From Candidatus Nanopelagicaceae bacterium (lineage in GTDB: Bacteria > Actinomycetota > Actinomycetes > Nanopelagicales > Nanopelagicaceae): 53,420 nt of DNA. The notes under the pieces are model-generated. The model saw only the letters and a list, made by a program, of their open reading frames with translations, had not been told where the DNA came from and searched no databases. Below are positions 10,170-14,523 of the stretch, in pieces. Location: positions 1-53,420 of the forward strand of contig JANQVH010000051.1 of the NCBI GenBank assembly GCA_030730425.1, written 5' to 3'. The translations under genes were made by a program, and so were the position numbers. The stretch's first letter is position 1. Each line of letters begins with the position of its first letter.

Positions 10170-12341
10170 ATGAACGCACTTATTACCCCGGTAATTAATC
10201 GCCTTAGGGAGAGTCAAGAAGGCAGCGATACTGGAGTTGTTGAACGAGCTTTTGAAGTAGCAGAGCGGGCTCATAAAGGTCAATTAAGAAAAAGTGGCGA
10301 TGCTTATATAACCCACCCAGTTGCAGTTGCGGAAATTCTCCTTGATTTCGGTCTTGATGCAAATAGCATTGCAGCAGCCCTGCTACATGACACGGTGGAA
10401 GATACGAGTTATTCCCAAGAATCACTACGCAAAGATTTTGGCGCTGAGGTTGCATCTCTTGTTGATGGCGTAACAAAACTAGATCGCCTCACCTATGGTC
10501 CAACAGCGGAGGCTGAGACAGTTCGCAAGATGGTCGTTGCAATGGCGAAAGATATCCGAGTTTTAGTTATCAAATTAGCAGATCGCCTCCATAATGCTAG
10601 AACTTGGCAATATGTTGAGCCAGAATCAGCTGAGCGAAAAGCAAGAGAGACTCTAGATATCTATGCCCCGCTAGCGCACCGATTAGGAATGAATGCAGTT
10701 AAGTGGGAGCTGGAAGACCTCTCTTTTAAATACATTGAACCAAAGAAATTTGACGAAATTGAACGTTTGGTTCAAGAGAGAAATCCATCTAGGGAGAAGC
10801 TAACTAATGAAGTTATCACTCTAGTTGAACAAGACTTAGCTTCAGAGTCAATTGCTGCAAAGGTAACAGGCCGGCATAAACATCTCTACAGCGTTTATCA
10901 AAAGATGGTTATAAGAGGGCGAGAATTTAGCGATATTTATGATTTAGTTGGAATCAGGGTTTTAGTAGATGATGTACGAGATTGTTACGCTGTCCTTGGA
11001 GCGATTCACGCCAGATGGAGCCCAGTTCCTGGAAGATTTAAGGATTACATCGCTATGCCAAAGTTTAATCTTTATCAATCACTTCATACCACTGTAATTG
11101 GGCCCAATGGAAAAGCAGTTGAAATTCAGATTAGAACTCATGATATGCACTCAAGAGCCGAGTATGGAATTGCGGCCCACTGGAAATACAAATTATCTGG
11201 CTCCTCAAGATCATCGGATTCACCGGATATGCTCTGGCTAAAACAGCTTCATGAATGGCAGCAGGAGACCTCGGATGTAACAGAGTTTCTCGATGCCCTG
11301 CGTTTTGATCTTAGAACTCCTGAAACCTTTGTCTTTACTCCTAAGGGAAGCGTTATAGCACTTCCACTTGGAGCAACTGCAGTGGACTTTGCTTACGCAG
11401 TTCATACCGATGTTGGAAATCGATGCGTTGGCGCAAAAGTTAATGGAAAGTTGGTTTCTTTAGAGGTGCCACTAGTCAATGGTGATGTAATAGAGGTATT
11501 AACAAATAAAGCTGAATCTGCATCACCAAGTAGAGATTGGCTTAATTTCGTAAAATCATCAAGGGCTCGATCCAAGATAAAGGCCTGGTTTTCCAAGGAG
11601 CGACGTGAGGAGGCAATTGATGCAGGCAGAGAATCAATTGCCAGACAGATGCGAAAGGCAGGGCTACCACTACAGAAAATCCTCGGTGGTCATAGCTTGC
11701 TCCAGTTAGCTCATGATTTAAATTATCAAGATATTGAAGCTCTCTATGCCGCAGTAGGGGATGGCCACATCTCGGCAAATCATGTAATTGAAAGACTTGA
11801 ATCATCCCTAGGATTAGCAGAAACCTACGACAGCCCGATTGATGAAAATATAACAACTGCTTCGCCAAGTCGAATAAATAGACGGAGCGCCTCGGGGATA
11901 ATTGTTGAAGGCGTAGAAGATGTATTGGTAAAACTAGCAAGATGCTGCACTCCTGTGCCAGGTGATTTAATAACAGGGTTTATTACTCGAGGTAGTGGGG
12001 TATCAGTTCATAGAAGCGATTGTGTAAATGTAGCTGATTTGAAATTTCACCAAGGCGATCGAATCACTGCAGTTAGGTGGGATGAGGCAGCAAAATCTGT
12101 TTTCTTGGTTAATATCCAGATTGAGGCGCTAGATCGAGCCAGGTTGCTCTCGGATATTACGCGCGCACTATCTGATCAGGAGATAAATATCGTTCATGCT
12201 GCAGTTAATACCACTAAAGATCAAGTGGCCTTCTCACGCTTTACCTTCGAGATGGCTGATGCCTCGCATTTAGAGGCAGTATTAGCTTCAGTAAAGAAAA
12301 TCGAAGGCGTTTATGATGTTTATCGAATAACTAATAACTAG
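10170..12341 (+). CDS. relA: Bifunctional (p)ppGpp synthetase/hydrolase Rel
   Basis: This 723-residue long RelA/SpoT homologue makes and degrades the alarmone (p)ppGpp. The hydrolase HD domain is intact (HDTVEDT, His73-Asp74). The synthetase domain has YDLVGIRV and the RFKDYIA motif, the RxKD form typical of bifunctional enzymes and not of synthetase-only RelA. TGS (TPKGSVIALPLGATAVDFAY), the zinc-finger-like CC segment (ARCCTPVPGD) and a C-terminal ACT domain follow in order. Its TAG stop shares the palindrome CTAG with the stop of the convergent DUF349 gene. Confidence 0.97.
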   Translation: MNALITPVINRLRESQEGSDTGVVERAFEVAERAHKGQLRKSGDAYITHPVAVAEILLDFGLDANSIAAALLHDTVEDTSYSQESLRKDFGAEVASLVDGVTKLDRLTYGPTAEAETVRKMVVAMAKDIRVLVIKLADRLHNARTWQYVEPESAERKARETLDIYAPLAHRLGMNAVKWELEDLSFKYIEPKKFDEIERLVQERNPSREKLTNEVITLVEQDLASESIAAKVTGRHKHLYSVYQKMVIRGREFSDIYDLVGIRVLVDDVRDCYAVLGAIHARWSPVPGRFKDYIAMPKFNLYQSLHTTVIGPNGKAVEIQIRTHDMHSRAEYGIAAHWKYKLSGSSRSSDSPDMLWLKQLHEWQQETSDVTEFLDALRFDLRTPETFVFTPKGSVIALPLGATAVDFAYAVHTDVGNRCVGAKVNGKLVSLEVPLVNGDVIEVLTNKAESASPSRDWLNFVKSSRARSKIKAWFSKERREEAIDAGRESIARQMRKAGLPLQKILGGHSLLQLAHDLNYQDIEALYAAVGDGHISANHVIERLESSLGLAETYDSPIDENITTASPSRINRRSASGIIVEGVEDVLVKLARCCTPVPGDLITGFITRGSGVSVHRSDCVNVADLKFHQGDRITAVRWDEAAKSVFLVNIQIEALDRARLLSDITRALSDQEINIVHAAVNTTKDQVAFSRFTFEMADASHLEAVLASVKKIEGVYDVYRITNN

Positions 12342-13642
12342 GATTTAAAGTCAGCAAGACCTTTTTGGGCCTCGCTAAGCCACATACGTCTAGCGGCGGC
12401 AGCCTCAAGTAAATCAGCAGCCTTCTTAGAATCCCCATTAGCTTGAGCTTTGGCAGCTTTAGCTTCATAGTCAGCGACAGCATTTGTTAATTGAGTAACG
12501 ACATCGTTAGCTCTTGCAATCGCTGTTGGGTCGCTACGACGCCATTGCTCCTGCTCTGCCTCCTTGATCGTCATCTCCACGCTATCCACACGCTTATCTA
12601 ATACTGATCTCTTTTTGCGATCGATCATGCCAATTTTTGAGAGCTTCTGGCGAAGATCGCGGAACTTTCTCTTAACATCATCGAGGTTTGTAATCGGCAA
12701 GAGAGCTTCCATCTCAGCGACAATTGCCTCTCGCTTTTCTAGGTTTGCAGCCATTGATTCGCCGCGCTTTTCAAGGTCTGCATTCTTTGTGGTGAAGAAA
12801 GTATCTTGGGCTGCCTTAAATCTTAACCAAAGTTTGTCGTCATCATTCTTCTTACCTCGGCCGCTTGCCTTCCATTGATCCATCAGGGCCTTATAGCGTC
12901 TAGCTGTCGCCACCCAATCTGTGGAGGTAGCAAGTGATTCAGCTTCAATAACAATCTTCTCTTTAGAATCTTTTACCTGGTTCTGTTGAGCACTCAGTCC
13001 TGCAAAGTGAACCCTGCGACGTTTATCAAACTTATTTCGAGCAGATGAGAAACGCTTCCATAGCTCTGAATCTGTCTTCTTATCAAGGCGTGGAGCCTTC
13101 TTCCATTCATCTAGTAATACTTTGAGACGCTCACCAGTTACCTTCCAACTAGTGGAATCGATTAAACCTTCAGCTTCAACAACTAGAGCCTCTTTTGCGG
13201 CAATGGTTGCTGCGCGCTTCTCTGCTTTAGCCTCAGCCTCTGCTGCTTTTTTAGCTTCATAGGCAGGGCGATGTTCATCAATTAAAGGTGGAATCTGTTC
13301 GAGTGAACTTCTTAGAGCTTCGAGATTTCCTACGCCATTTAGATGTTCAATCTGATTTCTTAACTTCTTAACCGCTTCATTGGCATCTTGAGGAACCATA
13401 GCGCCGCTGATGATTCGAGCAGCAAGGAGAGCCACTTCTGAGGCAACAAGTTCAAATTTACGGACAAAGTAGGCAAGTGCTTCTTCTGCAGATTTTCCAG
13501 GATATGAACCGACTACTTTTTCGCCATCGTTGGTTCGAACATAGACCATTCCATTTTCATCAACGCGTCCAAATTTTGAAGGATCACCGATTAGCGCTGC
13601 AGCAGCTGAGTTAGGTAGAACTTGATTATCTAGGGCATCCAT
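12338..13642 (-). CDS. DUF349 domain protein
   Basis: The 434-residue protein has a short N-terminal beta-rich module (FGRVDENGMVYVRT...EKVVGSYPG) followed by alanine/lysine-rich helices and repeated DUF349 units (for example WKVTGERLKVLLDEWKKAPRLDKKTDSELWKRF-type repeats, about residues 160-390), probably a long coiled-coil array. It contains no enzyme motif. The gene sits beside relA in many actinobacteria. The start is ATG at 13642 with AGGA upstream. Unlike most genes here it has no -10 box close to its start, suggesting a true 5' leader across the structured region 13643-13815. Confidence 0.88.
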   Translation of the reverse strand: MDALDNQVLPNSAAAALIGDPSKFGRVDENGMVYVRTNDGEKVVGSYPGKSAEEALAYFVRKFELVASEVALLAARIISGAMVPQDANEAVKKLRNQIEHLNGVGNLEALRSSLEQIPPLIDEHRPAYEAKKAAEAEAKAEKRAATIAAKEALVVEAEGLIDSTSWKVTGERLKVLLDEWKKAPRLDKKTDSELWKRFSSARNKFDKRRRVHFAGLSAQQNQVKDSKEKIVIEAESLATSTDWVATARRYKALMDQWKASGRGKKNDDDKLWLRFKAAQDTFFTTKNADLEKRGESMAANLEKREAIVAEMEALLPITNLDDVKRKFRDLRQKLSKIGMIDRKKRSVLDKRVDSVEMTIKEAEQEQWRRSDPTAIARANDVVTQLTNAVADYEAKAAKAQANGDSKKAADLLEAAAARRMWLSEAQKGLADFKS

Positions 13643-13689
13643 TAGGTCCTACTTTCTCGAACGTTGCGCACCTGGAGTTTTTCTCACTC

Positions 13690-13815
13690 TGGCGTTATGG
13701 GTTCAGCGGTTGGTAAGGGCCAAACGCTACCCCCATAGGGGTCTTTCTGTAAAAAAGTCGCTCAGATAGGGCTCTTTTGAGCGGAAGTAGCGACCTTGGT
13801 TGGAAGAATGCCTAG
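13690..13815 (-). promoter_or_regulatory. Structured intergenic region with three hairpins, possible leader of the DUF349 gene
   Basis: Three inverted repeats lie in this gap. AGCG-G-TTGG pairs with CCAA-A-CGCT (about 13705-13728). ACCCC pairs with GGGGT around the loop CATA (about 13729-13742). GTCGCT pairs with AGCGAC, with an inner GCTC-TTTT-GAGC hairpin (about 13758-13793). On the minus strand the last one is followed by TTTTTT. The elements could form a regulatory leader of the DUF349 gene. I do not recognise a known RNA family. On the plus strand AAGAAT lies 6 bases before the GTG at 13816, a weak -10 for the MBL gene. Confidence 0.45.
13752..13793 (-). terminator. Intrinsic terminator-like hairpin on the minus strand
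   Basis: Read on the minus strand, GTCGCT...AGCGAC closes an inner GCTC-AAAA-GAGC hairpin and is followed at once by six T residues. No minus-strand gene ends here, so it is either an attenuator in the DUF349 leader or the end of a small antisense RNA starting in the MBL gene. Confidence 0.5.
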
Positions 13816-14523
13816 GTGAGCCTCTTGGTCGATCGAATAGTGGCGCCTTATTACGCCACCAATTGTTGGATCATTGCTCCATCAAAAAATTCCCATTGCG
13901 TAGTAATTGATCCCGGTATTGGCATACCGAATTTAACTCAAGAGATTAAAGCAAAGTTAACTGAACATAACTTAGTCATTGGTGCAATATTTATTACCCA
14001 TGGACATCTTGATCACACATTTTCTCTCTACTCTCTTGCTCAAGACTTTATTGAAAGTGATACATATATTCATAAAGCCGATAGGGATCTACTGGTAAAT
14101 CCAGAACGGGCCATGGGAGCTCAATCTCAAGCTTTATTAAGCGAGCTTGGAGAGCTATCGGGTAGCAAGATTGAGTTTCAAGAACCGGAGAGAACCTGGT
14201 CAATTGATTCAGATAGTCAATCAAAGCTTGGGGGAATGAATTTTTCCTTTAGACATGCTCCGGGGCATACCCCTGGATCAACTCTTGCAATTGTTGAAGA
14301 TGAGCTCTTAATTAGCGGAGATGTGCTCTTTAAGGGCGGAATTGGAAGAACTGATCTGCCACGTGGCTCAATGAGCGACATGGAGATAACTCTTCGTGAG
14401 AAAATAGCGACCTTGCCACCTCATCTCCGTGTTCTTCCTGGACATGGCGATGAGAGCAGAATGGATGCGGAATTGAAGAGTAATCAATACCTCCTAGCGG
14501 CGACTCAAGGGAGATTGGCATGA
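13816..14523 (+). CDS. MBL-fold metallo-hydrolase (glyoxalase II-like)
   Basis: The 235-residue metallo-beta-lactamase fold protein has the metal-binding THGHLDH motif (His62, His64, Asp66, His67), a downstream HAPGHTPGS histidine, the SGDVLF aspartate, and a final PGHGDES histidine. These complete a two-metal site as in hydroxyacylglutathione hydrolase and its relatives. The substrate cannot be read from the sequence, and glutathione itself is unlikely in an actinobacterium. It starts with GTG and overlaps hisS by 4 bases (ATGA). The position between the relA region and hisS is common in actinobacteria. Confidence 0.88.

Follow-up and report, generated by a model that had tools for sequence, protein, structure and literature searches.

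The gap between the divergent DUF349 and MBL-fold hydrolase genes of the window (the whole 53,420-nt stretch of DNA that was analyzed) contains a hairpin that comparison across the Nanopelagicaceae family identifies as a conserved, covarying structured leader RNA, held at a fixed place before the DUF349 start codon. The anatomy of the gap is very probably that of a DUF349 promoter followed by a 5′ leader. As an explanation of the whole, we consider it fairly probable that the promoter is joined to a leader hairpin acting as a translational operator of DUF349. The result is a defined 37-nt RNA in place of a false terminator or antisense reading of the same gap.

The DUF349 locus and its predicted promoter

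The host genome (1.17 Mb in 54 contigs) has as its nearest named relatives uncultured Actinomycetota and Candidatus Nanopelagicaceae, the acI group. Members of the acI/Nanopelagicaceae, among the most abundant bacteria in fresh water, have very small genomes that encode few regulators. In the window, the DUF349 gene and the MBL gene are separated by 173 nt between their two divergent starts (13643 to 13815), and relA (RelA/SpoT, 10170 to 12341) adjoins DUF349, which confirms the proximity pointed out in the initial annotation (Table 1). The minus strand of the gap had a folding energy of −54 kcal/mol, compared with −42 ± 4.2 kcal/mol in shuffles, and none of the 200 shuffles folded as well.

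TTTACA and TAnnnT boxes 17 to 18 nt apart were present in 16/16 members of the window's genus, where the −10 variants were TAGCGT, TACCGT, TAACGT, or TACCTT and the −10 box ended 28 to 32 nt upstream of the leader hairpin. The other genera of the family retained the TAnnnT box, usually as GGGTACCTT or GGCTATCTT, with a weaker −35 box. The pair is predicted to be an actinobacterial housekeeping promoter reading toward DUF349. It resembles promoters of that class (TTGACA / TAnnnT) in its form, TTTACA-N17/18-TAnnnT, and differs from them in that its −35 box is one mismatch from the consensus and in that it is GC rich before and after the −10 box. In the window, this GC-rich sequence lies directly on either side of the −10 box (13724 to 13742), next to relA; a GC-rich discriminator is typical of stringent-controlled promoters.

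Table 1. Features in and around the DUF349-MBL gap, in window coordinates
Feature	Position	Strand	Remarks
DUF349 protein gene	12338..13642	-	434 aa, three PF03993 stretches; would be under the leader's control in the preferred explanation
Probable DUF349 ribosome-binding site AGGA	13647..13650	-	Between hairpin and start codon; inferred from sequence
Conserved leader stem-loop	13662..13698	-	37 nt; fold, R2 model match, family conservation and covariation
5′ flank AUAACG	13698-13693	-	Leader stem-loop
Stem CGCC/GGUG	13694-13691 with 13672-13669	-	Leader stem-loop
Stem GAGU/ACUC	13689-13686 with 13678-13675	-	Leader stem-loop
3′ flank GCGCAACG	13669-13662	-	Leader stem-loop
DUF349 transcription start, approximate	13714..13719	-	Inferred, 5-10 nt past the -10 box
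-10 box TAGCGT (TAnnnT type)	13724..13729	-	Predicted DUF349 promoter; kept in genus
-35 box TTTACA	13748..13753	-	Same predicted promoter; overlaps T-run 13751-13756; kept in genus
AGCGTTTGG with CCAACCGCT	13728-13720 with 13713-13705	-	Third repeat of the initial annotation
ACCCC..GGGGGT	13742-13729	-	Second repeat of the initial annotation
Two further hairpins	13705..13742	-	Judged not RNA structures; promoter spacer and repeat across the -10 box
AGCGAC	13762-13757	-	Outer "terminator" stem, 3′ arm; TTTTTT directly after (13756-13751)
GCTC-AAAA-GAGC	13782-13771	-	Inner hairpin
GTCGCT	13794-13789	-	Outer "terminator" stem, 5′ arm
"Orphan terminator"	13751..13794	-	Judged no feature; outer stem not conserved
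MBL-fold hydrolase gene, divergent	13816..14523	+	Neighbor, outside the element; followed by HisS

Conservation and covariation of the leader hairpin

We looked at the divergent DUF349/MBL gaps of 90 acI/Nanopelagicaceae genomes, several of which are incomplete assemblies, and read them on the DUF349 strand. Hairpin elements were located in 89/90 genomes, six of them being placed by hand. The cultured acI strain IMCC25003 (record CP015603) also carries the element. They followed a common plan, with an AUAACG or AUAGCG flank, a stem, and a CGCGCAAC or CGCGCUGA flank directly before the ribosome-binding site. The flanks were shared and close to invariant (A-N-C-G in 88/89 and CGYGC in nearly all), while the stem sequence differed in almost every genus; the arm sequence was not conserved, and lengths varied freely, from 3 to 9 pairs in the stem and from 3 to >20 nt in the loop. 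The end of the element lay 9 to 24 nt (median, 17) upstream of the start codon in 88 cases. A strict flank pattern, applied without structure, was found in 68/90 leaders, compared with 6.3 (maximum, 13) dinucleotide-shuffled leaders, and in 2 of the 90 on the opposite strand.

Because the flanks had guided the placement of the elements, the stem was tested separately. A good helix was present at the expected place in 81% of 42 dissimilar elements, compared with 17% when the inner parts were shuffled and 25% when the 5′ and 3′ halves were swapped between genomes, and the observed mean helix score was unmatched in 500 trials each of shuffling and half-swapping. In alignment A4 (27 sequences with linkers hand-padded with N, a padding favorable to structure), 96.8% of the cells were paired and 61 double-change cells were counted, compared with 18.5 in shuffles (0/500); when the partner was slid by 1 to 3 columns, pairing fell to 21 to 53%. 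The model-fitted alignment A7 (45 rows) gave 95.6% paired cells and 83 double-change cells versus 23 (0/500); here, as in the other tests, sequence counts do not equal independent events, and the shuffle and permutation nulls are not phylogeny aware.

One genus carries a second hairpin just upstream of the first, with flanks CACGG and CCAACGCA (11 sequences: L084, L091-L093, L096, L098, L099, L102, L103, L107, and L108). This second hairpin covaries as well (94.8% of cells paired; 10 double-change cells versus 3.2, 0/500), and tandem hairpins would fit a binding site.

The hairpin of the window itself was missed by our first model, R1, because the window's stem is atypical. The refined model R2 detected it with filters off (15.4 bits, E value = 8.7e-4 over 601 bases). 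The score reaches only about 15 bits because the stem is short and has one G-U pair in the window's genus.

Strand, gene specificity, and distribution

Counts of wobble pairs over whole helices (26 G-U versus 16) were too close to decide the strand, so the strand test was redone on close pairs. These showed 10 distinct single stem changes in which pairing was retained as a G-U of the DUF349-sense strand, compared with 2 for the other strand. The window's own copy contains such a change, GGUG in place of the GGCG of its relatives.

When R2 was run against 40 family genomes that are nearly complete, 27 matches had E values of ≤0.1. By their coordinates, 22 of these were at the DUF349 locus; the remaining 5 were all weak, with 4 expected by chance (40 genomes × 0.1). 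Several of the off-target matches of R1 fell inside coding sequence. Since the R2 matches away from DUF349 were at chance level, each genome has, by this model, a single element, and it is linked to a single gene. The short length of R2 (36 positions) bounds both the power of this genome scan and the sensitivity of the outgroup search, in which the leaders of 57 DUF349 loci from other actinobacterial families did not yield the element; the only R2 match there was weak and lay in L183, on the opposite strand. In the outgroups (L134-L190), a ppi gene of the cyclophilin type preceded DUF349 on the same strand in 33/54 loci; in the Nanopelagicaceae, DUF349 is divergent from MBL and has its own predicted promoter. 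Taken together, the missing element and the position behind ppi in the outgroups suggest that the hairpin leader appears to belong to the arrangement where DUF349 has its own promoter.

The search of Rfam that the initial annotation had proposed matched no family: the Rfam 15 covariance models gave no match at the gathering score in the window and, at a relaxed threshold, nothing meaningful in the gap or in 18 relatives. Among the papers searched, none was found to describe a leader of DUF349 genes or acI transcript starts. Structured leaders close to the ribosome-binding site of one gene are well known, and the hairpin is presented as a new candidate of this kind that, in the present sampling, is limited to one family.

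Terminator-like repeats in the gap

The initial annotation had explained the gap by other structures. All the repeat strings that it quoted do occur on the gap's minus strand, and the outermost of them, together with the six T residues that follow, had been taken for an intrinsic terminator near 13752, ending either an antisense RNA from the MBL gene or an attenuated minus-strand transcript. We regard such a terminator as very improbable. The hairpin and the six T residues do exist in the window sequence, but the outer stem GTCGCT/AGCGAC is gone in most close relatives (52% paired in seven of them, with covariation of the whole structure not above that of shuffles), and the hairpin as described was not formed in the minimum-energy fold of the minus-strand gap. 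The T-run after the stem is present and conserved in relatives, though within a −35 box, being retained as TTTACA with a −10 box 17 to 18 nt away. No minus-strand gene ends at the site, which is upstream of the predicted DUF349 promoter. Terminator-like patterns within the surrounding 10 kb were at chance (9 found versus 8.7 expected), and the pattern that was listed for this gap lies on the plus strand and is not the hairpin described. With its stem not conserved and its T-run part of a conserved −35 box, the orphan terminator is not supported. No support was found for the antisense RNA, whose supposed end is removed by the assignment of the T-run to the −35 box. Nor is an attenuator of DUF349 supported, since the predicted promoter has no conserved terminator downstream of it.

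The two further hairpins of that account exist as strings but were judged not to be RNA structures. The ACCCC/GGGGT repeat is the spacer between the −35 and −10 boxes, and the dyad around the −10 box was without covariation, its observed value being reached by 122/500 permutations; because the AGCGTTTGG/CCAACCGCT repeat begins in the −10 box, its 5′ arm would be outside the transcript. The general idea of a regulated DUF349 leader is supported, although not by way of the hairpins named for it. Aligning relatives in search of covarying pairs, as had been suggested, gave none in those stems and revealed them instead in the unlisted leader hairpin of Table 1, which is seen only by comparison.

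Proposed function of the leader hairpin

The hairpin is most likely a gene-specific translational operator, and we consider a regulatory role reasonably probable. In this mechanism, the TTTACA-N18-TAGCGT promoter would start the DUF349 message at about 13717. Some 20 nt farther on, the leader would fold into a small stem-loop in which invariant flanks (AUAACG ... CGCGCAAC) enclose a stem of free sequence and which ends just upstream of the DUF349 ribosome-binding site. A protein on the flanks and stem would then hinder 30S loading, and this protein might, more tentatively, be the RNA-binding DUF349 protein itself, under autogenous control.

The ribosome-binding site is not covered by the hairpin itself, and a further helix pairing the leader with it was not supported by covariation, which fell below the permuted mean; any control would thus have to come from a bound factor. 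The hairpin is positioned within or next to the region covered by a 30S subunit, and a protein bound there would therefore hinder initiation. Gene-specific leaders are a usual mark of autogenous control.

In Mycobacterium smegmatis, the protein MSMEG_2731, which likewise has three DUF349 repeats, binds both RNA and the ribosomal protein S1, with no ATPase activity detected (PMC3348880). DUF349 is the best candidate factor because this homologue binds RNA and S1 and because the leader is gene specific. MSMEG_2731 also bound single-stranded and double-stranded DNA (PMC3348880), which argues against a specific site. Among solved structures, no relative was found by sequence or by the fold of a predicted model. 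By analogy with the homologue, an autogenous step in which the DUF349 protein controls its own leader is conceivable, though we hold it to be doubtful. We give the same tentative standing to the proposal of a new family of RNA regulators, in which the acI DUF349 protein would repress its own translation by recognizing the AUAACG/CGCGCAAC hairpin of its mRNA, an element that one genus has in two tandem copies. If this is true, DUF349 would be a sequence- and structure-specific RNA-binding translation factor.

The single short stem adjoining the ribosome-binding site, present in one copy per genome, and its wide variation in length and loop might also be expected of a passive part of the leader, one that shields the 5′ end or keeps the ribosome-binding site accessible and constant without any regulation. 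We think this rather unlikely, since protection alone would not call for flanks as nearly invariant as these. Binding sites typically have conserved flanks on either side of a free stem, and this arrangement, like the tandem hairpins of one genus, would also agree with a small-molecule riboswitch or with the target of a protein other than DUF349, such as a ribosomal protein or S1. Such a role is unlikely, however, given that one gene per genome carries the element, which is far smaller than most known riboswitches and has no Rfam match.

The element is, in addition, an inverted repeat that lies between divergent genes and downstream of a promoter, as would a DNA operator for a transcription factor. 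This is improbable: the free stem and loop lengths and unconserved arms are unlike an operator, the G-U pairs agree with DUF349-sense RNA, and the element keeps its distance from the start codon rather than from the promoter. The translational operator remains our preferred reading.

Relation to known systems

The element is like the autogenous operators of ribosomal proteins (e.g., the S15 leader) in that it is a small structured leader before the ribosome-binding site of a gene whose product is of an RNA-binding class and in that it is limited to the gene's own leader (22 R2 matches at DUF349, with 5 others at chance level). Unlike in S15-type leaders, the product is not a ribosomal protein, and the hairpin differs in sequence and shape and has no Rfam match. 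The mycobacterial proteins MSMEG_2731 / Rv2731 share the three-repeat DUF349 architecture with the window's protein; for these, however, no leader hairpin or self-regulation is described, and the sampled outgroup loci are without the element. Candidate structured RNAs of the Weinberg type are recognized in the same way, by conserved flanks and a covarying stem upstream of one gene, but the DUF349 element differs from such motifs in being a single short hairpin of one bacterial family, outside Rfam 15. A conserved, covarying leader tied to a single uncharacterized gene offers a way into its function; from this leader, we predict that DUF349, a widespread and functionally uncharacterized domain, is dosage controlled and likely RNA binding.

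Other conserved sequences in the gap

In the window's genus, CCGCTGAACCC (13699-13709, minus strand), between the promoter and the hairpin, is almost invariant, which is not the case in other genera, and CGTTCGAG follows the hairpin in a subset of the genus. A closing GAAC/GUUC helix, with little variation in its sequence, is possible. On the plus strand (13803-13816), an AGAAT/GAGAAT motif recurs in the genus about 6 nt upstream of the MBL start and might serve a leaderless MBL transcript as its −10 box.
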